Assembly (NCBI RefSeq): GCF_023101665.1
Contig: NZ_CP082163.1
Location: forward strand, 124,001 to 188,000
Length of the DNA: 64,000 nt
Direction: 5' to 3'
Source of the DNA: Bradyrhizobium sp. 195
Lineage (GTDB): Bacteria > Pseudomonadota > Alphaproteobacteria > Rhizobiales > Xanthobacteraceae
In this document: positions 34,170 through 62,303 of the stretch, piece by piece
How positions within the stretch are numbered: position 1 is the stretch's first letter
Layout: each line of letters opens with the position of its first letter
Program-made: the position numbers and the translations under genes
The notes under the pieces: model-generated
Databases searched by the model: none
Seen by the model: only the letters and a program-made list of their open reading frames with translations
Told to the model about the DNA's origin: nothing

Positions 34170-34352
34170 GTCCTCTCTGCGCTGGATCATATCACCGGTC
34201 GTGGCCTGTACCGGTCCGCCGGCCGAGCTCCCAATTGGCGCATTCGTGCCGGAGCCTAGAGAAATCGGACGCCTTGCTCATTCACAAAGGTTAACCGCGC
34301 CGCGCCGTCGCCTCGAACAATTCGGGCATCGATGCTCATCGATGTCTCCGCA

Positions 34353-34377
34353 GGAACCTCGCAGCAGCGCCTACGTT
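34353..34377 (+). promoter_or_regulatory. EcfG (general stress) promoter before DUF1003
   Basis: GGAAC at 34353-34357, 16 bases, CGTT at 34374-34377: an exact match. The expected transcription start is only a few bases before the ATG at 34386. Confidence 0.65.
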
Positions 34378-34385
34378 GGCGCCGC

Positions 34386-44720: not shown

Positions 44721-44725
44721 CCCTC

Positions 44726-45022
44726 CTAAGCTTTCACGAATTTATGGAAGCGACTGAGCTCCCCGTCCTTGGTTCGGTCCTGATGAAGGAACGCGATGCC
44801 GGCATCGTCGAATTTCTCGAAGAAGTCGTCCCAGCTGATCCGGTCGAGAGCTTCATCCGGAGGATCGAAGTCGATCCGCAGGATTCCTGCATGCCCGTTC
44901 TCTTCAGTCGCCTTCACCGTCGCCGGCTTGCCACCACGCTCTTCCGCCCATTTTCGAATAACGTCGTGGTTGGTGGTGTGCTGCGCTTCGCTGCTGTGCA
45001 TCTTTGAATGACTTGAGTCCAT
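44726..45022 (-). CDS. Conserved small protein (sometimes mislabelled branching enzyme)
   Basis: The 98-residue product contains the conserved segment HDVIRKWAEERGGKPATVKA followed by ILRIDFDPPDEALDRISWDD and FFEKFDDAGIAFLHQD. Proteins with this pattern are widespread in Proteobacteria as hypothetical proteins; I recall some being misannotated as 1,4-alpha-glucan branching enzyme, although no GH13 features are present. It ends 6 bases before the GT9-like gene start on the same strand, so the two may be cotranscribed. Confidence 0.75.
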   Translation of the reverse strand: MDSSHSKMHSSEAQHTTNHDVIRKWAEERGGKPATVKATEENGHAGILRIDFDPPDEALDRISWDDFFEKFDDAGIAFLHQDRTKDGELSRFHKFVKA

Positions 45023-45353
45023 CTGACACCTTCCTCGCTGTCGCTGGAACTCGACATGATGACGAGTTCGTCCACTTTCGCTGAACGTCGGCCGACAGGA
45101 TTTGTTCTTGTTACAATTGCCGGTGCGGGTCGGCATCATCACCTTCATCTTCTTCTTGTTCTTCAACCGGGAAGAAGATCGTTCCTTGAAAGCGCCCGCA
45201 AATTCTAATCCAGGTTAAGACTATCGCTTTTTGTCGGGTTTTGACGCGATCATCCCGCTACACAGCGTGATCGATGCAGGAACGAACATACCTTCCGCAC
45301 GTTCGCCGATCTACTTACGTTGACCGCGCTGCTTTTCCGGAGGGCATCAGTTC
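45023..45353 (+). other. Promoter region of the glycan operon
   Basis: No gene lies here. This AT-richer divergent region separates the leftward small gene from the rightward inositol/glycan operon and contains an exact EcfG promoter at 45279-45303 and a GGAGGG ribosome-binding site near 45340. Confidence 0.6.
45279..45303 (+). promoter_or_regulatory. EcfG (general stress) promoter of the glycan operon
   Basis: GGAAC at 45279-45283, 16 bases, CGTT at 45300-45303: an exact consensus match 50 bases upstream of the inositol-3-phosphate synthase start. No other promoter-like element is evident in the divergent region. Confidence 0.75.
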
Positions 45354-46454
45354 ATGCATTCACGTCTTCAAGACAGGCAACGCGTACGCGTCGGTATTGT
45401 CGGCGTCGGCAATTGTGCGAGCTCCCTGATCCAGGGTCTCACCTACTACCGGAATGCGAAGTCGAACGAGCCGGTGCCCGGATTGATGAACGCCGATGTC
45501 GGTGGCTACCACATCAGCGACGTCCAGATCGCGTCGGCATTCGACGTCAACGCCAATAAGGTCGGGCGCGATGTCGCCGAGGCGATCTGGGCGAGACCGA
45601 ACAACACCCACCGCTTTGCCGAAGTCGCCGCCACCGGCGTGATCGTGCAGCGCGGGCCGGTCATGGATGGCGTGGGCCGCTATCTGCAAGATGACATTCC
45701 ACTTTCCGATGCGCCCGAGGCGGACGTGGCGGAGGTGCTGGCGACGTCGCGCACCGACGTGCTAGTGTCCTATCTTCCGGTCGGCTCGCAGCAGGCCAGT
45801 GAATGGTATGCCGCCCGCGCGATCGAGGCCGGTTGCGGCTATGTCAACTGCATCCCGGTTTTCATCGCCTCCAATCCGGATTGGCGAGCACGGTTCGAGC
45901 AGGCCGGCCTGCCGATCATCGGCGACGACATCAAGAGCCAGGTCGGCGCTACCATCCTTCACCGTGTGCTCGCCAACCTGTTCCGCGACCGCGGCGTCCG
46001 CCTCGACCGCACCTATCAACTCAACGTCGGCGGCAACACCGATTTCAAGAACATGCTCGAACGCGAGCGTCTGACATCCAAGAAGATCTCGAAGACCCAG
46101 GCCGTCACCAGTCAGTTCGACGTTCCCATGGACGCCGACAACATCCATGTCGGGCCGAGCGATCACGTCCCCTGGCTGACCGACCGGAAGCTCGCCTATA
46201 TCCGGCTGGAGGGTACGACCTTTGGCGGCGTTCCCCTGAGCGCCGAGGTGAAGCTCGAGGTCTGGGATTCTCCGAACTCGGCGGGCGTCGTCATCGACGC
46301 GGTGCGTTGCGCCAAGCTCGCCATGGACCGCGGCATGGCCGGCGCACTGACCGGGCCTTCGAGCTACTTCATGAAGTCGCCGCCGCAACAGTTCACCGAC
46401 GAGGAAGCCGGGCGCCGAACCCGCGCCTTCATCGACGACAAGGCCTACGCGTAA
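45354..46454 (+). CDS. ino1: Inositol-3-phosphate synthase
   Basis: The 366-residue product is the compact prokaryotic form of myo-inositol-3-phosphate synthase, which converts glucose 6-phosphate to inositol 3-phosphate using NAD. The N-terminal Rossmann motif is [17 protein letters not shown]; later family segments are [36 protein letters not shown] and [13 protein letters not shown], which carry substrate- and metal-binding residues. It is the first gene of the operon, 50 bases after an exact EcfG promoter. Its stop overlaps the start of the next gene by one base, tying inositol supply to the phosphatase and glycosyltransferases that follow. Confidence 0.93.
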
Positions 46455-47050
46455 TGGCGAGAATCATTCATCTCGTGCGTCACGGTCGTCACCCCCTGCT
46501 CGGCCGCACGCTGTGCGGCCGGATGAAAGGCGTCGCGCTCGACGAGCTCGGCTGCGAGGAGATCGCGCGCTGCGCCGATGCGATCGGCCCCCAGCCGACC
46601 CTGGTTCAATCGAGTCCACAGCGGCGCTGTCTGCAGTCAGCCTGCATCTTGGCCGCGCATTACGGTCTCTCGGTCGAGATCGTGCCAGCTCTCGATGAAC
46701 TGGGATACGGCGATTGGACCGGGCGATCGTTTGACGACCTCGCCCGGGATCCGCGATGGTCGGTCTGGAACACGCAGCGCGGCACGAGCCGGCCACCCGG
46801 CGGCGAGAGCATGCGAGCTCTTCAGCGACGCGTCATCGACCATCTCGAGCATCTGTGGAGCGACCCCGGCAGCGACACCGTCGTCGTCGTCAGTCATGCA
46901 GAGCCGATCCGTGCCGCACTCCTGCATTATCAGGGCATTGAGCTCGACGACTTTCTCTCCGTCGAGATCGAACCGGGCAGCGTCAGCACGCTCACTGCCG
47001 ATCACAACAAGATCAAGATCACCGGAATCAATCAGCGGGTAACAGCGTGA
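46454..47050 (+). CDS. Histidine phosphatase family protein
   Basis: The 198-residue phosphoglycerate-mutase-like phosphatase has the phospho-histidine motif LVRHGRHPL at residues 7-15, the SSPQRRCLQSA segment with the second arginine, the acidic ELGYGDWTG segment and the second catalytic histidine in VVVVSHAEPIRAAL. Placed directly after ino1 with overlapping codons, it may dephosphorylate inositol 3-phosphate to free inositol, standing in for an inositol monophosphatase. That substrate is inferred from position only; a sugar phosphate is equally possible. Confidence 0.9.
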   Translation: MARIIHLVRHGRHPLLGRTLCGRMKGVALDELGCEEIARCADAIGPQPTLVQSSPQRRCLQSACILAAHYGLSVEIVPALDELGYGDWTGRSFDDLARDPRWSVWNTQRGTSRPPGGESMRALQRRVIDHLEHLWSDPGSDTVVVVSHAEPIRAALLHYQGIELDDFLSVEIEPGSVSTLTADHNKIKITGINQRVTA

Positions 47051-48147
47051 GGATCGTCATATTCGGTCTGACTATCTCCTCCTCCTGGGGCAACGGTCAC
47101 GCAACCTTGTGGCGGGGCCTATGCAAGCACCTGGTGCGACTGGGGCACACCATCGTGTTTTTCGAGCGCGATACGCCGTATTATGCCGGCGCTCGGGATC
47201 TCCACGAACTGCCGGGTGGTCAGTTGAAGTTGTTTTCGGACTGGGAGCCCGTCCGCCCGGTTGCAAAGCAATATCTCCGCGATGCGGACGTCGCGATCGT
47301 CACGTCCTATTGTCCGGATGCAATCGCGGCGACCGACTTGATCCTCGAGGGACGCGCGATTCCGGTATTCTACGACCTCGACACTCCGGTGACGCTGTCG
47401 AGGATCGTGGCGGGAGAGGCAGTGCCGTATATCAGTCCGCGCGGCCTCAGGGATTTCGATTTGGTCCTGAGCTTCACCGGCGGCCCGGGCATCTTGCACG
47501 AATTCCGCTCAAGGCTCGGCGCGCGCCACATCGAGCCGCTCTATGGTCACGTCGATACCGACATTCATCGGCCGGTCGCACCGCAAGCCCATTACAGTGC
47601 GGATCTGTCCTATCTCGGCACCTACTCCGATGATCGTCAGCGGACGCTCGAAGCGCTGTTCGTTGCACCCGCGCGTAACAGGCACGATCTGCGCTTTCTG
47701 ATCGGCGGCGCCCAGTATCCGGACGATTTTCCGTGGTCTCCCAACATCTATTTCGTCCGGCATCTGCCGCCGTCCGAACATGCCGCGTTCTTCGCATCGT
47801 CCCGCCTGACGCTCAATGTCACGCGCCGGGCGATGGCGGAGATGGGGTGGTGCCCCTCCGGCCGTCTGTTCGAGGCCGCAGCCTGCGGAGTTCCTTTGCT
47901 CAGCGACAGTTGGGCAGGCATTGATACGTTCTTCGTCCCCGGCGACGAAATCCTGCTTGCGAAGAGCGAAGACGATACGCTCGCCGCCCTGGCGATGCCT
48001 GATGCCAAGTTGCGACGCATCGCGCAACGGGGGCGCGAGCGGACCATGGACCAGCACACATCGGAGAAGCGAGCGAATGAACTCGTTGCGCTACTCGAAC
48101 GCGCAGCGTCCGGTCGCATGTGCCAGCGGCAAACCGAGGAGGCCTAG
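47047..48147 (+). CDS. CgeB-like glycosyltransferase (copy 1)
   Basis: The 366-residue GT-B enzyme starts at a GTG that overlaps the upstream stop (GTGA). The N-terminus reads MRIVIFGLTISSSWGNGHAT with RGLCKHLVRLGHTIVFFERD. The C-terminal lobe has the Glyco_trans_1_2 pattern GRLFEAAACGVPLLSDSWAG. It is clearly paralogous to the gene at 58836 (shared SSWGNGHAT, FFERD/FLERD, YDLDTPVTLSR and LGTYSxDRQ segments) and more distantly to 56627 and 57751. Donor and acceptor are unknown. Confidence 0.88.
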   Translation: MRIVIFGLTISSSWGNGHATLWRGLCKHLVRLGHTIVFFERDTPYYAGARDLHELPGGQLKLFSDWEPVRPVAKQYLRDADVAIVTSYCPDAIAATDLILEGRAIPVFYDLDTPVTLSRIVAGEAVPYISPRGLRDFDLVLSFTGGPGILHEFRSRLGARHIEPLYGHVDTDIHRPVAPQAHYSADLSYLGTYSDDRQRTLEALFVAPARNRHDLRFLIGGAQYPDDFPWSPNIYFVRHLPPSEHAAFFASSRLTLNVTRRAMAEMGWCPSGRLFEAAACGVPLLSDSWAGIDTFFVPGDEILLAKSEDDTLAALAMPDAKLRRIAQRGRERTMDQHTSEKRANELVALLERAASGRMCQRQTEEA

Positions 48148-48150
48148 ACC

Positions 48151-48960
48151 ATGTGGGGAATCGTCCCGGCTGCCGGTCGCGGCAGCCGCATCCAGCCGCT
48201 CGCCTTTTCAAAGGAACTGCTTCCCGTCGGCAGCCGCGGCGATGACGGCACTGCACGTCCTTGCGCGGTCTCCGAGTATCTCCTCGAGCGCTTGATCCTG
48301 GGAGGAGCCGACAAGATCTGCTTCGTCATTTCGCCGGGCAAGTCCGACATTCTCGAATATTTCGGCGACCATTACGGCAGCGCCCAGCTCGCCTACGTGG
48401 TGCAGCCGGAGCCTCTCGGCCTGTGCGATGCCGTGTTCAGGGCGAGTACGGTTGTCGGTAGAGACGAGGACGTGACAGTGGGGCTGCCCGACACGGTCTG
48501 GTTTCCCGCCGCTGCCCTGCGCGCGCTGCCGGACGCCGATCTGTCGTTCCTGCTATTTCCCGTAGAACACCCGGAATTCTTCGATGCGGTGGTGCTCGAT
48601 GGCGATCGTGTGACCGAGATCCAGGTCAAGCAACGCAGCGCGAGCTCCAAATGGATCTGGGGTGCATTCCGGATGTCTGCACGCGGATTTCGTGAGCTGC
48701 ATGCGTTGTGGAAGGAGCGCGATCGCAGCGACGAATATTTTGGAACGTTGGTCAATGCCTATCTTGCCGCCGGCGGCCGCGGCACCGGCGTCAAGGCTGG
48801 AGATTCCTATGTCGATGTCGGCACGATCGACGGCTATCGCACGGCGATGGCCCTGCTTGCCGAGCCCGGTGCCGGGAACGCTCGTTCGCGCCTGTGGGCC
48901 GGCGCATCGCCCGAGACCATGCCGGCATCATCCATCACAAACGACGGAGTGATCGCATGA
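48151..48960 (+). CDS. Sugar-1-phosphate nucleotidyltransferase
   Basis: The 269-residue RmlA-like enzyme would activate a sugar 1-phosphate as an NDP-sugar. It starts MWGIVPAAGRGSRIQPLAFS, the GxGxRxxP loop with a lysine in FSKELLPVG. It also has VVQPEPLGLCDAVFRA, the acidic pair in VGLPDTVWFP and the late VDVGTIDGYRTAM, all as expected. Its sugar is unknown. It lies 3 bases after the glycosyltransferase and overlaps the methyltransferase start by 4 bases. Confidence 0.88.
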   Translation: MWGIVPAAGRGSRIQPLAFSKELLPVGSRGDDGTARPCAVSEYLLERLILGGADKICFVISPGKSDILEYFGDHYGSAQLAYVVQPEPLGLCDAVFRASTVVGRDEDVTVGLPDTVWFPAAALRALPDADLSFLLFPVEHPEFFDAVVLDGDRVTEIQVKQRSASSKWIWGAFRMSARGFRELHALWKERDRSDEYFGTLVNAYLAAGGRGTGVKAGDSYVDVGTIDGYRTAMALLAEPGAGNARSRLWAGASPETMPASSITNDGVIA

Positions 48961-49721
48961 GCCGATCGGCCCTTTCCCGTGACGAAATCCGTCGGCGCGT
49001 CGATGCGCTCGGGCAATGGTTTCACAATCTCGATCTCAATGGCGTCCCGACCGCGCCGGCGCATTTTCTCGGCGATTATCCCAACGTCAAATGGCGGCGT
49101 TTCTCGGGAATTATCCCGGACCGGCTCGAAGGCAAGACCGTGCTGGATATCGGCTGCAATGCCGGCTTCTACGCGATGGAAATGAAGCGCCGTGGCGCCG
49201 AGCGCGTGCTCGGCCTCGACACCGACGATGAATATCTGGCGCAGGCCCGCTTCGCCGCGGAGGTCAACGGGCTGCGTATCGAGTTCCGCAAGATGTCCGC
49301 ATACGACGTCGGACAGCTCCGCGAAAAATTCGACCTGGTGATCTTCATGGGCGTGCTCTATCACCTGCGGCATCCCCTGCTCGCTCTCGATCTAATCCAC
49401 GAACATGTCGCGGGCGATCTCCTGCTGTTCCAGTCGATGCTTCGCGGTGCCGGGCAGGTCGAGCCGATCGAGAAGAACTACGACTTCTGGACCACGGATC
49501 AATTCGATGCTCCGGGCTATCCCAAGCTTCACTTCGTCGAGCACAAATATGCCGACGATCCTACCAATTGGTGGGTCCCCAACCGCGCGTGCGTGGAAGC
49601 GATGCTCCGCAGCTCCGGTTTTGCCATCACGGCGCATCCCGAAGACGAGGTCTATCTCTGCAAGCGAACGGAGCGGCCGCAGGCCGACGGGCCTGTCTAT
49701 CCTTTGCGGAAGGTGGGCTGA
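48957..49721 (+). CDS. Class I SAM-dependent methyltransferase
   Basis: The 254-residue product resembles the CmoB-type methyltransferase family: LEGKTVLDIGCNAGFYAMEM is the SAM-binding motif I and LVIFMGVLYHLRHPLLALDL is the typical post-motif segment. DEYLAQARFAAEVNG provides the acidic end of the second strand. In this operon the acceptor is more likely a sugar or glycan intermediate than tRNA; that is inference from neighbours. Starts overlap by ATGA with the gene before and TGATG with the gene after. I recall a TIGRFAM built for methyltransferases in similar clusters but cannot verify it. Confidence 0.87.
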   Translation: MSRSALSRDEIRRRVDALGQWFHNLDLNGVPTAPAHFLGDYPNVKWRRFSGIIPDRLEGKTVLDIGCNAGFYAMEMKRRGAERVLGLDTDDEYLAQARFAAEVNGLRIEFRKMSAYDVGQLREKFDLVIFMGVLYHLRHPLLALDLIHEHVAGDLLLFQSMLRGAGQVEPIEKNYDFWTTDQFDAPGYPKLHFVEHKYADDPTNWWVPNRACVEAMLRSSGFAITAHPEDEVYLCKRTERPQADGPVYPLRKVG

Positions 49722-50671
49722 TGATCGAAGCTGCCAAAATCTGGAACGAGCCGAACAACAAATCGCATTGGGACCTCCTGATCGATCCGGACTGGGCAAT
49801 GTTTGCAGACACTGCGATCGCTGCGGGCAAGGCCATCCGCACGGCACATCCGACCCTGCCGCGCGTGCTGGGCGGCATATCGCCGATCGATCCGTCCTTC
49901 ATCCGTAACATGCAGGCGCGCGGCGTTCTCGAACATGTCGATGCGGTGGCCGTGCATGGCTTTCCGCTCGATTGGAATTTATGGCAGATCGGGGAATGGC
50001 CGAATAAGCTCAAGGAGATCAAGGCGGTGACCCCCCTTCCGGTCTGGGTCACCGAGGTCGGCGTGTCATCGTTCGGTGCTGAGGAGGTCCAGGCCTGGGG
50101 CCTGTCGCGCACCGCCGAGCTCCTGATCGGCCGGGCGCCGCGGATCCATTGGTACAGCCTCTATGACTTGCCCGCCGCCTGGGAGGCGACGACCCGGCAC
50201 AAGGAGGCCGAAGGTTCCTCCTACTACCGGCATTTCCACATGGGTCTGCTGCGGGAAGACGGCACCCCAAAGGCGGCGCTGGACAAGTTCGGCCAATACG
50301 CGCGAGACCTCGGCCTCTGCCAATGGTTTCACTTCGAGGATCATCGTCTGTACCAGGCCGCGGAATGGATGCGCCGCCTCGGCGTGACCCATCTGCGGAC
50401 GGGACTCTCCTGGGCCGACAGTTTCCGTCCCAATGCGCTGGATTGGTTTGACCGGCAAATGGATGCCGTGGCCGAATTCCAGGTCACGGTGACATTCTGC
50501 TTCACCCCGGCACATCGCGGTCTCGCGCCCCATCACACCAGCCCGCCAAGGGACGCAAACGAGTTCGCAGATTTCTGCGCCCAGATGATCGAACGCTATT
50601 GCACGAGGACCGGCTTGGCGCCCGTAGCCGAGCCGCAACCGATCACCACGGAGCCGACATGCGTGCCCTGA
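49721..50671 (+). CDS. Glycoside hydrolase-like protein with an apparently permuted TIM barrel
   Basis: The 316-residue product starts almost directly at a strand-4 motif: [18 protein letters not shown], where Glu10 corresponds to the acid/base of clan A hydrolases. WVTEVGVSS around residue 118 supplies the nucleophile, and HWYSLYDLP follows as strand 8. The segments normally found at the start of such enzymes appear at the end instead: [40 protein letters not shown], then [14 protein letters not shown] and a helix [12 protein letters not shown] that would lead into strand 4. The ATG overlaps the upstream stop (TGATG), so the start is firm. It may be a catabolic, transferase or structural protein; the substrate is unknown. 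Confidence 0.78.
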
Positions 50672-51864
50672 TCCTGGTGATGGATTCGGTCGGCATCGGC
50701 GCTGCGCCCGACGCCGCGCGCTATGGTGATGAGGGCGCCGATACGATCGGCCACATCGCCGAAGCCTGTCTTGCCGGGGTAGCCGACAATGCGAGCCGGA
50801 AGGGTCCCCTTCGCGTTCCCAATCTCGATGCGCTCGGCCTCGGCGAGGCCTGCCATCTTGCCACCGGGCGCACACCGGCAGGCCTCGAGGCCCGGACCAG
50901 GAGCTCGCAATCGGGATGCGCGAGCGAGATATCGAAAGGCAAAGACACTCCTTCGGGCCATTGGGAAATCGCCGGCGTACCCGTCCCATTCGAATGGGGA
51001 TATTTCCCGAAGAGCGTACCCTGTTTTCCCGACGACCTGGTGCAGCGCCTGTGCGCCGAGGCCGCCCTGCCCGGGATTCTCGGAAACTGTCATGCATCAG
51101 GGACGCAGATCATCGCCCAATTTGGCGAGTGCCACATGCGAAGTGGCGAACCGATCTGCTACACCTCCGCCGACAGCGTGTTCCAGATTGCGGCGCATGA
51201 GGCCACGTTTGGGCTCGAGCACCTTTACGACGTCTGCCTGACCGCGCGCAGACTGGTTGATCCCCTCAATATCGGGCGCGTGATTGCGCGGCCGTTCGTC
51301 GGCGGCGCCGGCACCGGCTTCAGACGAACCGGGCACCGACGGGATTTCTCCGTCCCTCCCCCGGAACGCACGCTCCTGGACATCGCCGAAAGTGAGCATC
51401 GTGACATCGTCACCATCGGCAAGATCGACGACATCTTTGCGCATCGCGGGACCGGACGGAATATGCGAGGTGATGGCAACGAAGCTCTGTTTGATGCCAC
51501 CCTTGAGGGGCTAGATGGCTTGGCGGAGGGCGGACTGTTGTTTGCCAACTTCGTCGATTTCGATACGACCTACGGACACCGCAGGGACGTCGCTGGATAC
51601 GCCGCGGCCCTCGAAGCATTCGACGCAAGGCTGCCGCAACTGATTGATCGACTGCGAAGCGATGACCTCCTGATCATCACCGCGGATCACGGCTGCGATC
51701 CTACTTGGGCCGGCACAGATCACACGCGCGAGCAGGTCCCGGTTCTCGTGGCGAATGCCAAGCGCTCCTATCATATCGGTCGACGCACGGGCTTTGCAGA
51801 TATCGCGGCCACCGTTGCGAGACATCTCGAACTACCGGCCCCGCTCCATGGCATCAGTTTTTGA
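50659..51864 (+). CDS. deoB: Phosphopentomutase
   Basis: The 401-residue member of the alkaline phosphatase superfamily has [13 protein letters not shown] (metal ligand Asp9), DTPSGHWE with the phospho-acceptor Thr97, [20 protein letters not shown] near residue 335 with the C-terminal metal ligands, and the DeoB cap domain between. It interconverts ribose (or arabinose) 1- and 5-phosphates. In a glycan operon it could supply pentose 1-phosphate for nucleotidyl transfer rather than act in nucleoside salvage; the operon has no nucleoside phosphorylase. It overlaps the previous gene by 13 bases. Confidence 0.9.
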
Positions 51865-51932
51865 ACGCTCGATCGCCGATTCACTCAGGTTATTGATCCA
51901 GGTTAGAGAAACTTTCGTTTGTACATTTTGCA

Positions 51933-51957
51933 GGAACCAACATTCCTTGCACCGCTT
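51933..51957 (+). promoter_or_regulatory. Possible degenerate EcfG promoter inside the operon
   Basis: GGAAC, 16 bases, GCTT within the only long gap (about 200 bases) of the operon. Its spacer, CAACATTCCTTGCACC, resembles that of the strong promoter at 45279 (GAACATACCTTCCGCA). It fits only the relaxed GGAAC-N18-TT form. Confidence 0.3.
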
Positions 51958-52067
51958 CTAACTTCGAACGTGACTGGCGCGCGGGTCGCCCGACCGAAGC
52001 AGAGCGCGCTTCCACACTCATCCAGGTCGATCCCGCAGGATCGGTCGCCATGCGCACGGAGCGGTGA

Positions 52068-53180
52068 ATGACGCGAGTATTGATCACGGGCGGCGCGGGC
52101 TTCATCGGATCGCATGCGGCCGACAGCCTTTTGGCCGCCGGCTACGAGGTCAGACTGCTCGACAATCTTTCGCCACAGGTCCACGGCGGCAACCGTCAGC
52201 GCCCCTCCTATCTCGCCGCCGACGCGGAGCTCATCATCGGAGACGTGACCGATGCCAACGCTGTCGAACGCGCTCTGCGAGGGACCAACATGGTCCTGCA
52301 CCTAGCCTCCGTGGTCGGCGTCGGCCAGAGCATGTACGACATCGAGCCCTACGTCAGGACCAACGAGGTCGGCACCGCCGTGCTGCTGCAAGCGCTATCA
52401 AAGCGTCCTGTCGAACGGCTGGTGGTGGCCTCCTCGATGAGCATCTATGGAGAAGGCCTCTATCGCAGTGCCGATCAAAGCGTGATCGCTTGTGAAGAAC
52501 GGCCGATCGAACAACTCCGTAACGGCGACTGGGAATTGCGCGACAAGGCCGGCAATCCCCTTGAGCCCGTTCCGACGCCAGAGACCAAGCAGCCAACGTT
52601 GAGCTCGATCTATGCGCTGAACAAATATGCGCAGGAGCGGATGTGCCTGATCACGGGCAAGGCCTACGGCATTCCGACCCTGGCGCTGCGCTTGTTCAAC
52701 GTGTTCGGCCCTCGCCAGGCTCTGTCGAACCCCTACACAGGCGTGCTCGCGATCTTCGCCGCCCGGCTGCTCAACGGACGACCGCCTCTGGTGTTCGAGG
52801 ACGGCCTCCAGCGCCGCGATTTCGTTCATGTGCATGATGTCGCTCGTGCGTGCCGCATGGCGCTCGAGGCCGATCATGCCCAGGACGTCTTCAACGTCGG
52901 TTCAGGCCAGAGCCGTAACATCTTGTCGGTGGCCCAGGACCTAGCGGAAGTCATGGCGCGGCCCGACATCGAACCCGAGATCACCCGAAAATACCGTGCA
53001 GGCGACATTCGACACTGCTTTGCCGATATCGGCAAATCTCGCGACGTGCTCGGTTTTGTTCCGCACATCCACTTCAAGGACGGCCTTGAAGAGCTCGCAG
53101 AATACCTTGCTGACCAGATCGCCGACGATCAAGCCGAGCGCGCTACCCGCGAGTTGCTGCAACGAGGATTGGTTGCGTGA
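52068..53180 (+). CDS. NAD-dependent sugar epimerase/dehydratase (extended SDR)
   Basis: The 370-residue extended SDR has [16 protein letters not shown] at the start, LHLASVVGVGQSMYD, catalytic serine in VVASSMSIYGEG and YALNKYAQERM for the YxxxK pair, with RLFNVFGPRQALSNPYTGVL and RRDFVHVHDVARA as substrate-side motifs. It probably modifies an NDP-hexose or NDP-uronate. It begins the second half of the operon after a 203-base gap that holds a weak promoter candidate and overlaps the next gene by one base (TGATG). Confidence 0.9.
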   Translation: MTRVLITGGAGFIGSHAADSLLAAGYEVRLLDNLSPQVHGGNRQRPSYLAADAELIIGDVTDANAVERALRGTNMVLHLASVVGVGQSMYDIEPYVRTNEVGTAVLLQALSKRPVERLVVASSMSIYGEGLYRSADQSVIACEERPIEQLRNGDWELRDKAGNPLEPVPTPETKQPTLSSIYALNKYAQERMCLITGKAYGIPTLALRLFNVFGPRQALSNPYTGVLAIFAARLLNGRPPLVFEDGLQRRDFVHVHDVARACRMALEADHAQDVFNVGSGQSRNILSVAQDLAEVMARPDIEPEITRKYRAGDIRHCFADIGKSRDVLGFVPHIHFKDGLEELAEYLADQIADDQAERATRELLQRGLVA

Positions 53181-54238
53181 TGACTGACAACAGACCTGTT
53201 CTGATCACCGGAGGCTGCGGCTTCATCGGCTCCAATCTTGCCGACCGGCTCGCCGAACGAGGCGACAACGTGCTGGTGCTCGACAACCTTGCCCGCGCTG
53301 GCGTGCGCGAGAATGCTCAGTGGCTGAAGTCGAGGCACGGAGACCGGGTGGCGGTGACCATCGCCGACATCCGCGATCCGATTCCTGTCATCGACGCGGT
53401 GCGCGAATCCCGTGCGGTTCTGCACCTGGCGGCCCAGGTCGCCGTCACTGATAGCGTGAGCGATCCCGCTTCCGACTTCGAGATCAATGCCCGCGGCACG
53501 CTGAACGTGCTTGAAGCCGTTCGCCTGCACAATCCGCCGGCGCCTGTCATCTTCGCCTCGACCAACAAGGTCTACGGTCGTCTGATCGACGACAGCGCGA
53601 TCACGCTGTCCGGCCGGCGCTATGTGCCGATGAGTGACGGTCTGGCTGGCGGTGTTTCCGAAGAGACGCCGCTCGATTTCTATAGCCCCTACGGTTGCTC
53701 CAAGGGCACTGCGGACCAGTACGTTCACGATTACGCCCGCGTGTTCGGACTTCGTACGGTCGTGATGCGCATGAGCTGCATCTACGGCCCGCGTCAGTTC
53801 GGCACCGAGGACCAAGGCTGGATTGCACACTTTTTGCTGAGCGCGATTCGAGGAAATCCGCTCACGATCTATGGCGACGGCAAGCAGGTTCGCGACGCGC
53901 TCCACGTCTCGGATGCGGTCAATGCCTGGCTAGCAGCGCTTGATCGCATCGAGCTAGTCCGCGGACGGGTCTTCAATCTCGGTGGCGGTCCGCGCAATGC
54001 GATCAGTCTGCTAGAATTGATCGACCAGATTGGTGAGCTAACAGGCCGGGACGTCGCCTACAGTTTCGCTGACTGGCGTCCGGGCGATCAGCCCTGGTAC
54101 GTCACGGATACAAGCGCCTCGTCCGCGGCGCTTGGCTGGGCGCCGCAGGTTGGGCTCGCGGAAGGACTTCGCTCGCTCCACACCTGGCTGTACAGCCGCT
54201 TCGGATCATCAGATAGCAGCCGCGAGGCCTTGGCATGA
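53180..54238 (+). CDS. NAD-dependent sugar epimerase (CDP-paratose/tyvelose epimerase-like)
   Basis: The 352-residue extended SDR has TGGCGFIGSNLADRLAERG, VLHLAAQVAVTDSVSDP, FASTNKVYGR and YSPYGCSKGTADQYVHDYAR. The FASTNKVYG and YGCSKGxADQY segments are those of CDP-paratose 2-epimerase-like enzymes that invert C2 of a deoxy sugar. The sugar here is unknown. The ATG at 53180 overlaps the upstream stop; the GTG one codon earlier is less likely. It overlaps the radical SAM gene by 4 bases. Confidence 0.9.
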   Translation: MTDNRPVLITGGCGFIGSNLADRLAERGDNVLVLDNLARAGVRENAQWLKSRHGDRVAVTIADIRDPIPVIDAVRESRAVLHLAAQVAVTDSVSDPASDFEINARGTLNVLEAVRLHNPPAPVIFASTNKVYGRLIDDSAITLSGRRYVPMSDGLAGGVSEETPLDFYSPYGCSKGTADQYVHDYARVFGLRTVVMRMSCIYGPRQFGTEDQGWIAHFLLSAIRGNPLTIYGDGKQVRDALHVSDAVNAWLAALDRIELVRGRVFNLGGGPRNAISLLELIDQIGELTGRDVAYSFADWRPGDQPWYVTDTSASSAALGWAPQVGLAEGLRSLHTWLYSRFGSSDSSREALA

Positions 54239-55521
54239 CCCGGGTCGCCCTCATCAATCCCAACTGGGAGTTCGGCGGCAGCATTTATTTCGGCTGCCGA
54301 TCGCCTCACCTGCCGCTGGAGCTCGGCATATCCGAACACCACCTGAAGGCGGCTGGACACGAGACGCTGCTGATTGACGCCCACATGTTCGACCTGTCGC
54401 TTACCGACATCGAAGCCGAGCTGCGCGCGTTCGATCCGGATCTGGTCGCCATCACCACAGCCCCGACCTATCTGTTCTGGCGTTGCGCCCCCCCTGAGCT
54501 CCGTGTGCCGCAGCAGCTCGCGCTTACGGTTCGGGACCTCGCACCTGTCCTGGTCGCGGTCGGCCCTCACGGCTCGACCACACCAAAGGCGGCGCTGAAA
54601 AAGCTCGGTGCCGACATCGTCATCATGGGAGAATGCGAGATCTCGTTGCTCCGCCTGGCCAACGGCGAACGCGACTTTGCTGGCCTGTGCCTTCGGGACG
54701 GAGCTTCCGTCCAGGTCAATGGTGGCCCCCAGGCTGCCCGCTTTACGGATCAGCCGCCGCTGCACTGGCCCGACGAGATGATTCGCCGGCATCACCATCA
54801 CCATCATCGCTTTGAAGCCGAGCCGCTTGCACCTGGTGCCGAGGTCGAGGCCTCGCGAGGTTGTCCTTACAGCTGCACGTTCTGCGCCAAGGACAACTTC
54901 CGCAACGCCTATCGCAAGCGTCCGCCCGCTATCATTCTCGATGAGATCGACGGCCTCCGTAGCCAGGGCATCGAATATGTCTACTTCATCGACGAGATCT
55001 TTCTCCCGAACGCCGAGCTGCTGCAGGAGCTGACGACGCGGGATCTGAAATTCGGCGTGCAGACCCGGATCGACCTTTGGAAACCGGACATGCTCGCCCT
55101 GCTCGGCCGCGCCGGTTGCGTTTCGATCGAGGCCGGGATCGAGAGCCTGACAGTTGAGGGGCGCGCTGCGCTTGCCAAGAACTGCAGAATGAGCACCGAT
55201 CAGCTGGCAGAGCGGCTGTCCGAAGCGCGTCGTCACGTTCCCTTCGTGCAGGCCAATTTGATTGAAATGCCCGAGGACGACGATCCGGTCGTGCAGCGCT
55301 GGCGTCGCCAGATGCAGGACGCCGGCGTCTGGGCCAATGACCCAGTCCCTCTCTATCCCTACCCGGGATCGCCGGACTACCGCAAATTATGGGGCGAGCC
55401 CGACGACTTCGCCTGGGAGCGCGCCCATCAGCATTATCTCGCGATGTTCGACCGGTTCAGCGACGTCCAGAACGATCGCCCCGTTCCGCTCGATGCACTC
55501 GAACTCCAGGTGGCGCCATGA
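54235..55521 (+). CDS. B12-binding domain radical SAM protein
   Basis: The 428-residue product has an N-terminal cobalamin-binding-like domain (INPNWEFGGSIYFGC, then LGISEHHLKAAGHETLLIDA) and a radical SAM domain with the iron-sulfur motif Cys210-Cys214-Cys217 (SRGCPYSCTFCAKDNF). The region VYFIDEIFLPN is typical of B12-type radical SAM enzymes. Residues 186-191 are six consecutive histidines. Such enzymes often methylate or rearrange unactivated carbons; on a sugar, inositol or lipid the reaction is unknown. I recall a TIGRFAM subfamily in similar clusters but cannot verify it. It overlaps both neighbours by ATGA. Confidence 0.9.
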   Translation: MTRVALINPNWEFGGSIYFGCRSPHLPLELGISEHHLKAAGHETLLIDAHMFDLSLTDIEAELRAFDPDLVAITTAPTYLFWRCAPPELRVPQQLALTVRDLAPVLVAVGPHGSTTPKAALKKLGADIVIMGECEISLLRLANGERDFAGLCLRDGASVQVNGGPQAARFTDQPPLHWPDEMIRRHHHHHHRFEAEPLAPGAEVEASRGCPYSCTFCAKDNFRNAYRKRPPAIILDEIDGLRSQGIEYVYFIDEIFLPNAELLQELTTRDLKFGVQTRIDLWKPDMLALLGRAGCVSIEAGIESLTVEGRAALAKNCRMSTDQLAERLSEARRHVPFVQANLIEMPEDDDPVVQRWRRQMQDAGVWANDPVPLYPYPGSPDYRKLWGEPDDFAWERAHQHYLAMFDRFSDVQNDRPVPLDALELQVAP

Positions 55522-56555
55522 GCCGCAGTTCGCACATCAGGCTGCTGATGACCACCGACACCGTGGGGGGCGTGTGGACCTATTCCTGCGGTCTCGCCTC
55601 CGATCTCGCAAACGCTGGTGTCAACGTCGTCCTGGTCACGATGGGTCCTCGCGCGCGGACAGACGAGCGGGAGCGCCTGCAGCGGTCCCGCGTGCGTCTG
55701 ATCGAGACGGATCTTGCGCTCGAGTGGCAGGACCCTGAAGGCGCCGATGTGGCCGACGCGAGCCGCGTGCTCGCCAGCCTCGAAGCCAAGCTCAGGCCGG
55801 ATGTCGTTCACCTCAATAGCTTCCGCGAAGCAGGTTTCGGCTGGCATGCGCCGACGGTGCTGGTGGCGCATTCCTGCGTCAATTCCTGGGCGCAAGCGTG
55901 CCGGGACACGACGTGGCTTGAGGAGCCGCGGTGGCGCCGCTACACCGAACGCGTTGCCGCGGCTCTCGACCAGGCGCAGGCCTGGGTGTGCCCGAGCCAA
56001 TCCTTTCACGACACGATTGATGATATCTATGGTCCTCGTTCCAGAGGCACAGTGATCTGGAACGGGATCGCGCCGGGCGATTTCGTCGGACGAAAACAGG
56101 AGCTGATCTTCGCGGCCGGACGGCTTTGGGACCGCGCCAAGAACATCCAAGCTCTTGCGACCGCGGCGCGTGGATTGGCTTGGCCTGTCGAAGTCGCAGG
56201 TGCCGCCGATGCGAGCCCCTCCCCTTCGGTCACCTGGCTGGGCCACCTGTCGCCGGAAGCCCTGCACGCCCGCCTTCGGCATGGAGCAATTTTTGTGAGT
56301 CCGGCGCTCTATGAGCCGTTCGGCCTTTCGGTGCTGGAGGCCGCGGCAGCCGGCTGCGCGCTCGTCCTGTCCGACATCTCGACGTTCAGGGAGCTCTGGA
56401 ACGGAGCCGCCATCTTCGTCGATCCGGCCGACACCGACGCGCTGTATCATGTCCTCGCGGATCTTTGCGCGGACGCGCGCGAGCGCTCGCGGCTCCAGCG
56501 CGCTGCCTACGAGCATTCGCTGACCTATTCGCGGGCGCGAATGACCAGCGCTTAA
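55518..56555 (+). CDS. Glycosyltransferase family 4, apparently cut short by a nonsense codon
   Basis: The 345-residue GT4 enzyme has LLMTTDTVGGVWTYSCGLAS at the start, HLNSFREAGFGWHAPTVLVA, WNGIAPGDF, and EPFGLSVLEAAAAGCALVLS for donor binding. It ends RARMTSA at a TAA (56553-56555). The same frame continues for 24 more codons (LRLYESLIATQSVATREDRI) to a TGA that overlaps the next ATG exactly as at other junctions of this operon, so the ancestral protein probably ended there. Relatives often have a YLRLYxSL tail. The catalytic lobes are complete, so activity may be retained. Confidence 0.88.
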   Translation: MSRSSHIRLLMTTDTVGGVWTYSCGLASDLANAGVNVVLVTMGPRARTDERERLQRSRVRLIETDLALEWQDPEGADVADASRVLASLEAKLRPDVVHLNSFREAGFGWHAPTVLVAHSCVNSWAQACRDTTWLEEPRWRRYTERVAAALDQAQAWVCPSQSFHDTIDDIYGPRSRGTVIWNGIAPGDFVGRKQELIFAAGRLWDRAKNIQALATAARGLAWPVEVAGAADASPSPSVTWLGHLSPEALHARLRHGAIFVSPALYEPFGLSVLEAAAAGCALVLSDISTFRELWNGAAIFVDPADTDALYHVLADLCADARERSRLQRAAYEHSLTYSRARMTSA

Positions 56556-56626
56556 TTGAGACTCTACGAAAGCTTGATCGCGACGCAGTCTGTCGCGACC
56601 AGAGAAGACCGGATCGAGGTGCGGGC

Positions 56627-57754
56627 ATGAAATGCGTTCTGTTCTACCATGCGTTCACCTCGTGCTGGAACAATGGCAACGCACACTTTCTCCGCGGCTA
56701 CGCGCGCGAGTTGCATGCGCTGGGTCATGAGGTCGTCGTCTTCGAGCCGATCGATGGCTGGAGCCGATTGAATGCGATACGAGAAGGCGGTCCGCATGCA
56801 CTCGACGACATCCCGGCGCTGCTGCCCGGGATCGACATTCGCCGCTATGATGCCTTCCCCGACCTCGACCGTGCCATTGACGGCGCAAATCTTGTGATCG
56901 TCCACGAGTGGAATTCCCCCGGTCTGATCGCGCAGCTCGGACGCAGGCGCGCGCAAGGGGCTCCCTACACGCTGCTGTTTCACGATACCCACCACCGCGC
57001 GGTCAGCGCGCCAGACGAATTGGCACAGTTCGACCTCGATGGCTTCGACGGCGTGCTTGCCTTCGGCGAGGTGCTTCGGCAGATCTACCTGAAGCTTGGA
57101 TGGGCGGACCGCGTCTTCACTTGGCACGAGGCGGCGGATACCGCCTTGTACCACCCGCTGCCGGACATCGCGCGCACCGACGATCTGATCTGGATCGGCA
57201 ATTGGGGCGACGGCGAGCGCGGCGCCGAGCTCAACGAGTTCCTCGTCGAGCCGGTCGCCGAATTGAAGCTCCGGGCCAGCATCTATGGCGTCCGGTACTC
57301 GGACGCGGCTCTCGAGACGATTCGAGCGGCCGGTATCCGATACGGCGGCTGGCTGCCGGCACATTGGGCTCCCGCGGCCTTTGCCAGCGCACGTGCGACG
57401 GTGCATGTGCCACGGGCGCCCTATGTCCGTTCTCTTCCGGGCATACCCACCATCCGCGTCTTCGAAGCGATGGCCTGCGGCATTCCCCTGGTCTCCGCAT
57501 CCTGGTCGGATGCGGAGGGCCTATTCCCCGAGGGCGCCTATCTCGGGGTTGCCGATGGCGCACAGATGAAACAGGCATTGCGCGCCCTCCTGGATGACCA
57601 CGAGATGTCGTCAGCGATGGTGCAAACAGGGTTCCGTGTGATCCGCGAAAAGCACACCTGCCGCCATCGCGCGCACCAGCTCCTTGAAATCGTCGAGGGC
57701 ATCCGGGCCACGGGCCAGTCGCAGCGCAAGTCAACCATCGGAGCGGTCGCATGA
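56627..57754 (+). CDS. CgeB-like glycosyltransferase (copy 2)
   Basis: The 375-residue product starts MKCVLFYHAFTSCWNNGNAH and RGYARELHALGHEVVVFEPI. Its C-terminal donor lobe has IRVFEAMACGIPLVSASWSD. It shares the SxxxNGxAxxxRG start with the copies at 47047, 57751 and 58836 and is most like 57751. Its ATG overlaps a TGA that would end the uninterrupted upstream GT4 frame. It overlaps the next gene by 4 bases. Confidence 0.87.
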   Translation: MKCVLFYHAFTSCWNNGNAHFLRGYARELHALGHEVVVFEPIDGWSRLNAIREGGPHALDDIPALLPGIDIRRYDAFPDLDRAIDGANLVIVHEWNSPGLIAQLGRRRAQGAPYTLLFHDTHHRAVSAPDELAQFDLDGFDGVLAFGEVLRQIYLKLGWADRVFTWHEAADTALYHPLPDIARTDDLIWIGNWGDGERGAELNEFLVEPVAELKLRASIYGVRYSDAALETIRAAGIRYGGWLPAHWAPAAFASARATVHVPRAPYVRSLPGIPTIRVFEAMACGIPLVSASWSDAEGLFPEGAYLGVADGAQMKQALRALLDDHEMSSAMVQTGFRVIREKHTCRHRAHQLLEIVEGIRATGQSQRKSTIGAVA

Positions 57755-58839
57755 GGATCTGTTTCTTCGGATCGAGCCTCGTATCGTCCTACTGGAACGG
57801 CGCTGCGACCTACTATCGCGGCATGCTGAAGGAAATTGCGACGCTCGGACACGAGGTCACCTTCTTCGAGCCGGACGCGTTCGAACGACAGGCGCATCGC
57901 GACATCGACGACCCCGACTGGGCGCGGGTGGTCGTCTATCCGGCAACGTCGGACGGCTGGCGCGGCAGCCTGGAAGCCGCCGCCAAGTCTGCCGACATGC
58001 TGATCAAGGCCAGCGGCGTCGGGGTCTTCGACGAGGAGCTTGAGATTGCGGCCGCGACCATCCCCTCGAGAGCCATGCGCATCTACTGGGATGTCGACGC
58101 GCCGGCGACGCTCGAAGCGATCGATCAGAGCCCGCAGCATCATTTGCGCAGCGTCATCGCGTCCTATGACATGGTGCTGACCTATGGCGGCGGCGAGCCG
58201 GTCGTGTCCGCATACCGCGCCAGGGGTGCTCGCGATTGCATACCGATCTACAATGCGCTGGATCCAGCAACCCACTTCCCCGCACCGCGGATCGCGCGCT
58301 ACGCCTGCGATCTCAGTCTGCTGGCGAACCGGCTCCCCGATCGCGAGCAGCGCGTCGAGCGCTTCTTCATCGAGGTCGCGCGTCACTTGCCGGAAAAGAG
58401 CTTCGTGCTCGGCGGCTCCGGCTGGGAGACCAAGCAGACGCCGGCCAATCTGCGCAAAGTCGGACACGTCGGCACCGCCGATCACAACGGCTTCTTCGGC
58501 TCGGCTCTCGCCACGCTCAACGTCAATCGCGACAGCATGGCGCGCTACGGCTTCTCGCCGCCGACACGCGTGTTCGAGGCCGTCGGCGCCGGCGCCTGCC
58601 TGATCACCGATCAATGGGAAGGAATCGATTATTTTCTGGAGCCCGACCACGAGGTTCTGGTCGCGGCGACCGCAGCGGAGGTGGCCGGCCACATCAACGC
58701 TTTGACCCCCGATCGCGCCCGGGCCATCGCCGGCCGCGCCCGCGCGCGCATCCTCAATCACCACACCTACCGGCATCGCGCGCGCCAGTTCAACGAACTC
58801 TTTGTCGGAAGCAGCTCACGCATAGAGGCAGCAGAATGA
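57751..58839 (+). CDS. CgeB-like glycosyltransferase (copy 3)
   Basis: The 362-residue product starts MRICFFGSSLVSSYWNGAAT and RGMLKEIATLGHEVTFFEPD, with IYWDVDAPATLEAIDQ in the linker region and TRVFEAVGAGACLITDQWEG in the donor lobe (Glyco_trans_1_2 type). It is one of four related enzymes in the operon, so the product may carry several similar sugars or a repeating unit. It overlaps genes on both sides by ATGA. Confidence 0.88.
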   Translation: MRICFFGSSLVSSYWNGAATYYRGMLKEIATLGHEVTFFEPDAFERQAHRDIDDPDWARVVVYPATSDGWRGSLEAAAKSADMLIKASGVGVFDEELEIAAATIPSRAMRIYWDVDAPATLEAIDQSPQHHLRSVIASYDMVLTYGGGEPVVSAYRARGARDCIPIYNALDPATHFPAPRIARYACDLSLLANRLPDREQRVERFFIEVARHLPEKSFVLGGSGWETKQTPANLRKVGHVGTADHNGFFGSALATLNVNRDSMARYGFSPPTRVFEAVGAGACLITDQWEGIDYFLEPDHEVLVAATAAEVAGHINALTPDRARAIAGRARARILNHHTYRHRARQFNELFVGSSSRIEAAE

Positions 58840-59960
58840 ACCTCAACATCGTCGTCATCGGTCTTTCGGTCACATCCTCATGGGGCAACGGTCATGCCAC
58901 GACCTACCGCGCCCTGATCGAAGCCCTGGCACAGCGAGGCCACCGCGTCAGCTTCCTTGAGCGCGACGTCGCCTGGTATCGGAATCATCGCGATCTGGTC
59001 AATCCCTCCGCGTGGAACGTCCACCTCTATCAATCGCTCAGCGACATCCCATCCCGCTTCGGATCGCTCATCCGCGCTGCCGATCTGGTGATGGTCGGCT
59101 CGTACGTGCCTGACGGCATCGCGATCTCTGACTGGGTGACGAGCCATGCTCAGGGAATTACCGCCTTCTACGACATCGATACGCCGGTCACGCTGTCTCG
59201 CCTCGAGCAAGGCCTCGATTACATTTCTGCGGCAATGATTCCGCGTTTTGATTTGTATCTGTCCTTTACCGGCGGTCCGGTCCCGCAGATGATCGAGGAG
59301 AACTACGGCAGCCCGCTGGCGCGAGCGCTTTATTGCAGCGCTGATACGAATCTGTACGCACCCAGGCCAGCGAAGCCAAAATGGTCGCTGGGTTACCTCG
59401 GAACGTACAGCGGCGACAGGCAGCCTGTTCTCGAGGAGTTGCTTCTGGCGCCTGCCCGCGCCTTGCCGGCTGAGCAATTTGTGGTCGCAGGGGCACAATA
59501 CCCCGAGCACATCAGTTGGCCCGCCAATGTGACCCGGATCGAGCATCTCACGCCGCAGCAGCATCCGACGTTCTATTCCGAACAGCGCTTCACCCTGAAT
59601 GCGACGCGGAGCGACATGCGCGCGCTTGGCTTCTCACCCAGCGTTCGCCTGTTCGAGGCGGCGGCCTGCGGAACACCGATTATTTCGGACCGATGGCCAG
59701 GCCTTGAAACGATATTCGAGCCGTCCTCCGAAATCCTCATCGTCTCCGAGCCAAAGGAGGTGATCGAGATCCTGCGGGACATCCCTGAAGAACGCCGACG
59801 ACAGATTGCGGAGAACGCGAGACGGCGGGTTCTTGCTGATCACACGTCGGAGCATCGGGCGCAGCAGCTGGAGACCTTCTATCTGGAGGCTTCCGCGCGG
59901 CGGCGTCGGAAATCCAAGCGACTGCCTGAAATCCGGCCGGTGCAGGTCGCCGAACTCTAA
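58836..59960 (+). CDS. CgeB-like glycosyltransferase (copy 4)
   Basis: The 374-residue product, MNLNIVVIGLSVTSSWGNGH onward, is the closest paralog of the enzyme at 47047: both have RGHRVSFLERD or an equivalent, YDIDTPVTLSR, LSFTGGP, LGTYSGDRQ and RLFEAAACGTPIISDRWPGL. The C-terminus is basic. The two related enzymes flank the operon, which suggests an ancient internal duplication. A 12-base gap separates it from the UDP-xylose synthase gene, which has its own AGGGAGA box. Confidence 0.88.
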   Translation: MNLNIVVIGLSVTSSWGNGHATTYRALIEALAQRGHRVSFLERDVAWYRNHRDLVNPSAWNVHLYQSLSDIPSRFGSLIRAADLVMVGSYVPDGIAISDWVTSHAQGITAFYDIDTPVTLSRLEQGLDYISAAMIPRFDLYLSFTGGPVPQMIEENYGSPLARALYCSADTNLYAPRPAKPKWSLGYLGTYSGDRQPVLEELLLAPARALPAEQFVVAGAQYPEHISWPANVTRIEHLTPQQHPTFYSEQRFTLNATRSDMRALGFSPSVRLFEAAACGTPIISDRWPGLETIFEPSSEILIVSEPKEVIEILRDIPEERRRQIAENARRRVLADHTSEHRAQQLETFYLEASARRRRKSKRLPEIRPVQVAEL

Positions 59961-59972
59961 AGGGAGACGACC

Positions 59973-61037
59973 ATGACGTTTCAGACTCGCATTCGTGCCC
60001 CGCGCCCGACCCCGACCACGTTGGTCGCCGGTGGCGCCGGGTTTATCGGCTCGCATCTGTGCGACGCGCTCCTGCAGCACGGACACAGGGTGATTTGTCT
60101 CGACAACCTGTTCACCGGCACGATGGCAAACATCCGGCCACTGCTCAACCATCCGAATTTCCGCTTCATCGACCAGGACGTGCGTGAGCCGCTGGACATC
60201 GACGAACCCGTCGATCGGATCTACAGCCTGGCCTGCCCGGCCTCGCCGCGCAGTTACCAGAAGGATCCGATCGGCACGATGAACACCTGCGTGATCGGCA
60301 CCATGAACATGCTCGAGCTTGCGCGCCGGAAGTCGGCGCGCGTGCTCCAGGCATCTACCAGCGAGGTGTATGGCGACCCTGAAATCCACCCCCAGCCGGA
60401 ATCCTACCTCGGCAACGTCAATCCAATCGGTCCGCGCGCCTGTTACGACGAGGGCAAGCGCGCCGCAGAAACACTGATGTTCGACTACCACCGGCAGCAC
60501 GGGGTCGAGATCAAGGTCGCGCGCATTTTCAATACCTATGGACCACGCATGCTCGAGAACGACGGGCGGGTCGTGTCGAACTTCATCGTACAGGCCTTGC
60601 GCGGCGAACCGATCACCATCTACGGCCGTGGGACCCAGACCAGAAGCTTCTGCTTCGTCGACGATCTCGTGCGCGGATTGCAGCTTCTGATGGAGAGCCC
60701 GGCCGAGGTCACTGGCCCGTGCAACCTGGGCAACCCGCATGAGGTCACGATCGAAGCCATCGCCCGCGAAGTCCTGTCGTACACCCGTTCGACGTCCCCG
60801 CTTCGCTTCGAGGCGCTGCCCACGGACGATCCCAAGCGTCGCAAGCCCGTCATCGACATCGCCGAACGGTCACTGGGATGGCGCCCGCGCGTGCCGCTGA
60901 AAGACGGCCTGCAGGCGACCATTGCCTATTTCGCGCTTCGCATCGCGACCGATGCCCCGGCGCTGACGCCGGCAATCGCCGCAGGCAGGACGGGCCGTAC
61001 GGCCCGCGGACGACTAACCCTTGCGGAGCGCACGTGA
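59973..61037 (+). CDS. UDP-glucuronate decarboxylase (UDP-xylose synthase)
   Basis: The 354-residue extended SDR has [36 protein letters not shown], the [20 protein letters not shown] segment diagnostic of UDP-xylose synthase, [40 protein letters not shown] and RTQ-like end [18 protein letters not shown]. It converts UDP-glucuronate to UDP-xylose. The Arg-rich tail (about 30 residues) is an extension. As the last gene of the operon it points to xylose, or a pentose made from it, as a component of the final glycan. Confidence 0.92.
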
Positions 61038-62245: not shown

Positions 62246-62270
62246 GGAACCTTTGTAGGATTGGTCGGTT
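62246..62270 (+). promoter_or_regulatory. EcfG-like promoter before the oxidase operon
   Basis: GGAAC, 16 bases, GGTT, 34 bases before the subunit II start: one mismatch from the consensus at the least conserved position. Confidence 0.42.
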
Positions 62271-62303
62271 CCGCCCCTGAAGCGGGAGTTCGGCGAAGCG
62301 TCT

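Follow-up and report, generated by a model that had tools for sequence, protein, structure and literature searches.

In a 64,000-nucleotide stretch of contig NZ_CP082163.1 from Bradyrhizobium sp. 195 (the whole stretch analyzed, hereafter the window), 15 plus-strand genes spanning 45354-61037 form a real, co-conserved, and promoter-linked unit, organized as two modules: module A (genes 01-07) and module B (genes 08-14, mostly with gene 15). On balance, we consider it an even call that these genes encode a cytosolic pathway for a small methylated oligosaccharide made within the general stress response. The gene families would best fit a pentose-containing product that is often linked to inositol. 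Because the set includes no lipid carrier, flippase, or exporter, this product is probably soluble and intracellular.

The original prediction had described 15 same-strand genes with mostly 1-4 base overlaps, and both points were borne out: the gene families agree with those it had given, and with the gene starts chosen in our analysis, nine of the 14 junctions overlap by 1-4 bases. Genes 06 and 07 overlap by 13 bases, and the remaining four junctions are gaps of 3, 203, 71, and 12 bases. Module A comprises an inositol-3-phosphate synthase (Ino1; gene 01, 45354..46454; PF01658), a histidine phosphatase (02, 46454..47050; PF00300, 2.2e-39), CgeB-like glycosyltransferase A (03, 47047..48147), a sugar-1-phosphate nucleotidyltransferase (04, 48151..48960; PF00483, weakly RmlA-like against solved structures), an S-adenosylmethionine (SAM) methyltransferase (05, 48957..49721), a circularly permuted PslG/GH39-like glycosidase (06, 49721..50671), and a phosphopentomutase (07, 50659..51864; NF003766, 510 bits). 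Module B opens with a GalE-like nucleoside diphosphate (NDP)-sugar epimerase (08, 52068..53180; PF01370), whose closest solved structures are epimerase/dehydratase proteins, several of them called UDP-glucose 4-epimerase, and a CDP-tyvelose 2-epimerase-like enzyme (09, ending at 54238 and starting at GTG 53177 or ATG 53180). These are followed by a B12-binding radical SAM protein (10, 54235..55521), a GT4 glycosyltransferase (11, 55518..56555; PF13439, PF00534), and CgeB-like glycosyltransferases B (12, 56627..57754), C (13, 57751..58839), and D (14, 58836..59960). Gene 15 (59973..61037) encodes a UDP-glucuronate decarboxylase (UDP-xylose synthase), which scored 377 bits against the solved UDP-glucuronic acid decarboxylase 1 and passed no NCBIfam equivalog cut-off. 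The five glycosyltransferases are thus, by Pfam, one GT4 and four PF13524 proteins, the latter called "CgeB-like" in the original prediction and here, and "Glycosyl transferase-like" by Pfam. In all 15 proteins, hydropathy stays below the strength expected of a membrane segment (KD19 maximum 1.6).

Co-conservation, which the original prediction had named as a check, is evident across lineages. The locus counts given here rest on 80 encoding stretches, the best of 454 from a scan of a genome collection, and 42 of the 80 are titled Bradyrhizobium. Genes 08-14 are complete in 69 of these loci and all 15 genes are present in 43, with exactly the 15 genes in order in 38; the incomplete loci include some truncated by contig ends. 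The radical SAM gene exceeds its family cut-off in six of the 41 relatives, in 13 of 289 genomes from the class, in seven of 299 from the phylum, and, within Bradyrhizobium, in 24 of 117 genomes, each count including the source genome. No score fell between 66 and 708 bits among the 41 relatives, and the genus set has one partial match (485 bits). Loci extend to Acidobacteria (L103, L104) and a cyanobacterium (L117), all three being metagenome-assembled genomes (MAGs), and module B is complete in an acidobacterial and a cyanobacterial MAG. A second full 15-gene copy, missed by the original prediction, lies in the source genome itself (L015), on a 602-kb contig and at 72%-89% identity to the window copy, which is on a 221-kb contig. 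A near-identical copy occurs in Bradyrhizobium sp. 164 (L040), with 99%-100% identity over genes 10-15 and 86%-98% over genes 01-09, a step that suggests recombination within the cluster. Another Bradyrhizobium copy (L160) is decaying, its radical SAM, GT4, and glycosyltransferase D genes matching in pieces only.

The exact EcfG-type promoter claimed upstream of ino1 is present (GGAAC-N16-CGTT, 45279..45303, plus strand, 50 bases upstream of the ATG). A second, EcfG-like site (GGAAC-N16-GCTT, 51933..51957, plus strand) lies in the 203 bases that separate genes 07 and 08, and its GCTT -10 element deviates from what we take to be the EcfG consensus. The original prediction of a single unit behind one promoter stands as regards co-conservation and the promoter it named, but the unit consists of two modules with two promoters; it had overlooked both this second site and the module boundary in the same gap, the longest intergenic gap of the cluster. 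Exact GGAAC-N16/17-CGTT sites occur upstream of ino1 in 48 of the 63 loci having that gene, all 48 falling among the 49 loci of Bradyrhizobium, Rhodopseudomonas, Rhodoplanes, and relatives. At the 14 other gene starts, the exact pattern was absent for 12 genes and present in 4/79 loci for gene 12 and 10/79 for gene 08. When GCTT was allowed alongside CGTT, 47 of the 51 loci from Bradyrhizobium and its relatives had a site ahead of gene 08, against a background mean of 0.019 per stretch and strand; before the other thirteen genes, this pattern was found, all told, in one locus for gene 15 and four for gene 12. Spacers diverge between loci while both sites stay conserved. Judged by these motifs, the two EcfG-like sites are conserved among bradyrhizobia and relatives and not further. 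In the window as a whole, the looser pattern GGAAC-N15/19-GTT occurs 13 times versus 6.07 expected, a count reached by none of 100 shuffles.

Gene order in other lineages also separates the two modules. Module A generally adjoins module B, but it is divergent from B in Azospirillum (three loci) and Belnapia (four loci), downstream of B in six Methylobacterium/Methylorubrum loci, and on a different contig in Azospirillum rugosum and in the L091 and L100 genomes.

The suggestion that the product is possibly inositol-headed is in part consistent with the distribution of Ino1. Among the 117 Bradyrhizobium genomes, Ino1 is present in 24/24 with the radical SAM gene versus 6/93 without it (Fisher p=1e-19, kinship ignored). 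The 24 Ino1 sequences, one of them with an internal stop, are at least 85% identical and lie on the same contig as the radical SAM gene, approximately 7-9 kb apart; the six further genomes have only a 65%-76% relative, and 87 have neither gene. Beyond the genus, Ino1 accompanies the radical SAM gene, at 65%-81% identity, in 24 of 31 genomes, so the association is not universal. The module core and the methyltransferase also occur without Ino1 (L098, L117), which favors a role for inositol as acceptor or cap over one as an invariant center. Genes 01 and 02 are neighbors on one strand in 61 of the 63 loci having gene 01, and the simplest use of the phosphatase would therefore be to free inositol, or to remove phosphate after transfer.

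Genes 03, 04, and 07 behave as an optional sub-module. Among 71 loci scored for them (two of which, L161 and L084, are one genome), all three were present in 52 and none in 13, five of these near a locus end, and gene 07 was never found without both 03 and 04. One unscored locus on a contig lacking gene 01 (L078) has 04 and 07 without 03, the contig starting at 04. The trio occupies the distal end of module A in three of four Belnapia loci (order 01-02-05-06-03-04-07), where gene 07 is more distant (44%-46%). Besides gene 07 and its second-cluster copy, no phosphopentomutase was matched in the source genome at E 1e-20. That the three genes travel together suggests a dedicated NDP-pentose supply, in which a pentose-1-phosphate would be converted to an NDP-pentose and then transferred by 03; the obvious guess for this NDP-pentose would be NDP-ribose. 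Nucleotidyl activation of ribose-1-phosphate has reportedly been seen with LipM in nucleoside antibiotics; our literature search found neither support for NDP-ribose donors nor a paper on the LipM precedent.

Two cluster proteins belong to curated NCBIfam families, with gene 10 at 715 bits against a TIGR04295 cut-off of 400 (an excess of 315) and gene 05 at 376 against a TIGR04290 cut-off of 300 (an excess of 76). Close relatives of gene 10 carry the JGI product name "B12-binding domain/radical SAM domain protein of rhizo-twelve system," so the cassette is already known to annotators. A literature search for TIGR04295, TIGR04290, and "rhizo-twelve" found no paper using these names and no product for the cluster, and wider searches yielded only general papers (including PMC8092242, PMC4814048, and PMC8707904). 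The cluster can accordingly be called undescribed, as originally claimed, with regard to its product, but not with regard to its members. Cys210, Cys214, and Cys217 of gene 10 are invariant in 16 sequences, and the four chains matched among solved structures are tryptophan-C2-methyltransferase, apramycin oxidoreductase, a radical SAM core protein, and TokK.

Sequence comparison and a predicted structure show gene 06 to encode a circularly permuted PslG/GH39-like glycosidase, its hydrolytic activity being predicted. It has no Pfam or NCBIfam match. A WNEPN strand opens all 66 long homologs in the 80 loci, their starts having been picked by script near the alignment start. Four loci (L091, L098, L115, and L121) encode an approximately 33% identical relative fused ahead of epimerase 09, with the halves in reverse order. 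Alignment of native gene 06 with these unpermuted relatives splits in two (90-99 and 55-61 bits), whereas a rotated gene 06 aligned in one piece with 4/4 (134-148 bits) and matched PslG 27-184 over the join (E 0.0002); a profile of the unpermuted relatives matched PslG 28-305 (E 3e-9). The AlphaFold2 model has eight barrel strands (pLDDT 83, pTM 0.84; prediction poor for residues 156-169 and 298-311). In it, Glu10 directly follows strand 1, and Glu112 lies where strand 4 ends. In GH-A enzymes, the catalytic Glu pair sits at the ends of strands 4 and 7. The model likewise places Glu10 and Glu112, both invariant in 41 sequences, three strands apart, a spacing equal to that pair. The L091 genome carries both permuted and unpermuted forms, and the L100 genome has a fused copy in which both motifs are lost, together with an intact-looking permuted copy. 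No circularly permuted GH39 enzyme was among the matches listed in our literature search.

Taken together, these families suggest a route in which module B would build the core. Gene 15 would convert UDP-glucuronate to UDP-xylose, the 4-epimerase-like (08) and 2-epimerase-like (09) enzymes would remodel NDP-sugars, and the GT4 (11) and three CgeB-like transferases (12-14) would assemble a chain that the B12 radical SAM enzyme (10) may modify at carbon, most likely by C-methylation. Module A would finish the product: Ino1 and the phosphatase (01, 02) may provide myo-inositol as acceptor or cap, methyltransferase 05 would O-methylate, and the rotated glycosidase 06 would trim or transglycosylate. 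Where present, genes 07, 04, and 03 would convert a pentose-5-phosphate to a pentose-1-phosphate and then to an NDP-pentose, perhaps NDP-ribose, for transfer. The product would probably stay soluble inside the cell as a protectant. We regard as possible, and only tentatively propose, the stronger version of this scheme, namely a hitherto undescribed class of intracellular glycan that is inositol-linked, pentose-rich, and O- and C-methylated, built from an NDP-ribose-type donor, finished by the permuted glycosidase, and serving as a stress protectant.

Several observations weigh against the oligosaccharide pathway as proposed. Cluster-type Ino1 is absent from the other seven of the 31 radical SAM genomes outside Bradyrhizobium (five of them MAGs), and the pentose trio is not indivisible, with 03 and 04 lacking 07 in five loci (three near a locus end, possibly hiding 07) and 03 standing alone in one of the 71. 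Relatives of gene 10 include the diol-dehydratase family of AprD4, which is presumably the apramycin oxidoreductase chain, besides methyltransferases, and other chemistry is possible. The general stress control foreseen in the original prediction is consistent with the EcfG sites of bradyrhizobia and relatives but is not evident in other groups: the exact site was upstream of ino1 in none of the 14 loci outside them (Methylobacterium/Methylorubrum, Belnapia, Azospirillum, and one Hyphomicrobiales MAG), and of 28 other loci only four had a GCTT/CGTT site ahead of gene 08. Finally, the genome could encode an exporter or a lipid acceptor outside the cluster.

The leading alternative, which we consider rather unlikely, is a membrane glycolipid whose headgroup would be built by the soluble transferases at the inner leaflet, on a lipid such as a hopanoid or an inositol lipid. 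Ino1 can feed inositol lipids, GT4-type transferases can associate with membranes without transmembrane helices, and gene 10 resembles HpnR (70 bits) and a B12 radical SAM model of lipid biosynthesis (64 bits), although neither score comes near its cut-off. Nonetheless, among recurrent neighbors of the cluster in 39 loci, no transporter, lipid enzyme, flippase, resistance gene, or export gene was recognized, with three small families having no Pfam match in the members scanned. In addition, an Azospirillum brasilense strain has the cluster, yet adenosylhopane alone is reported as detected in A. brasilense Sp7 (PMC12583986).

A secreted or intracellular secondary metabolite, such as a glycosylated cyclitol or nucleoside-like compound, is less probable still. 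C-methylation by B12 radical SAM enzymes is common in secondary metabolism, the LipM precedent comes from nucleoside antibiotics, and presence in Bradyrhizobium is patchy (the 24 of 117 genomes above), but the widely conserved gene order, the stress-type promoters, and the lack of recognized resistance or export genes among recurrent neighbors argue otherwise.

Biosynthesis of O-antigen, capsule, or bradyrhizose appears improbable. The epimerases, UDP-xylose synthase, and Ino1 would suit it, but none of the hallmarks of such loci (Wzx/Wzy, ABC exporter, polymerase, or priming transferase) was found among the 15 proteins, which lowered this candidate, and the cluster is spread over many genera. 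That the locus is unlike a usual capsule or O-antigen locus, as first claimed, agrees with the lack of a predicted membrane segment in 15/15 proteins. According to PMC4743980, bradyrhizose is an inositol-fused sugar assumed to be made by an 11-gene locus of photosynthetic bradyrhizobia, located approximately 44 kb from rfaL and beside rfaD/E/F. Strain STM 3809 (L071), named in that paper, does carry our cluster. However, using the heptose epimerase gene as a proxy, the cluster lies well over 100 kb away in two of four genomes (L072, L076), contig ends limiting the other two (L070, L071). A mycothiol-like route to a glycosyl-inositol bearing a cofactor or redox group is highly improbable. In its favor, Ino1 comes closest to the mycothiol model and is followed by a phosphatase, but it misses the TIGR03450 cut-off (529 versus 638 bits), the GT4 has only 29 bits to MshA, and the core occurs without Ino1.

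The genes around the cluster are partly of a putative stress type (topoisomerase IB, DUF1003). De novo clustering of neighbors at the 39 loci gave ten families beyond the 15, each in three to six loci; four are antisense shadows of cluster genes, and Pfam identified others as topoisomerase IB (3/6 members scanned), Crp-type regulators (2/5), and DUF1003 (1/4). Topoisomerase IB lies beside or within the cluster in seven loci (L101, L102, L106, L107, L091, L090, and L121); in four Belnapia loci it is inside module A, and in Tistrella L121 it is identified by annotation. Its recurrence is odd for a glycan locus. Topoisomerase IB is listed among the EcfG targets of Sphingomonas melonis (PMC6599016). 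A minimal cassette sits beside stress genes in Tistrella L121 and on a Geminicoccaceae plasmid (L168), these including Ku and LigD, manganese catalase, and a ferritin-like gene.

The rest of the window (1-45000, 20 open reading frames scanned) looks like a stress island too. It encodes a PCMT-erythromycin esterase fusion (4750-6912), two alpha-amylase family proteins (16125-17831 and 29323-30951), a GT4 (17887-18987), a SIR2-like domain protein (23396-24253), a DUF1003 protein (34332-34922), and a CheB/CheR-PAS-HWE kinase (39405-42566), as well as three Crp-type regulators, with GGAAC-N-GTT sites in excess. Two divergent genes without a Pfam match (43782-45166, minus strand) lie directly upstream of ino1. 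Beyond the cluster, a GGAAC...GTT site readable on both strands (62246-62272) precedes a cytochrome oxidase subunit II-like gene.

The cluster points to a widespread product of root and leaf bacteria, uncharacterized as far as we found, and should that product protect against stress, it would be relevant to how inoculants survive in dry soil. Genes 07-04-03 offer a candidate route from pentose-1-phosphate to NDP-pentose that can be tested directly, and gene 06 offers a natural circular permutation in a TIM-barrel enzyme, with epimerase-fused unpermuted relatives and both forms in one genome.

Compared with known systems, the cluster resembles the start of mycothiol synthesis (Ino1, MshA, phosphatase) in that a phosphatase follows an Ino1 of the TIGR03450 model family, but it differs in the sub-threshold score of this Ino1 and in that none of the 15 genes belongs to the later mycothiol steps, the rest of the genome not having been searched for them. 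Gene 06 shares sequence similarity and a conserved catalytic-type Glu pair with PslG/GH39 enzymes, whereas it begins at strand 4 of its unpermuted relatives, a rotation by three strands, shows no signal peptide on visual inspection, and is found among soluble pathway proteins. Gene 09 matches CDP-tyvelose 2-epimerase (TyvE) structures at approximately 280 bits (9rl0, 287; 1orr, 279), but no CDP-dideoxysugar genes are among the 15, and relatives of gene 09 are fused to a glycosidase domain in other lineages. The closest counterpart is the "rhizo-twelve" cassette, whose two curated cut-offs are exceeded by the radical SAM and methyltransferase genes of the window. For that cassette we found names but no product and no paper, and to it we add the modular anatomy, the second promoter alongside the first, the permuted glycosidase, and the traveling 03-04-07 sub-module, all new as far as we have seen.

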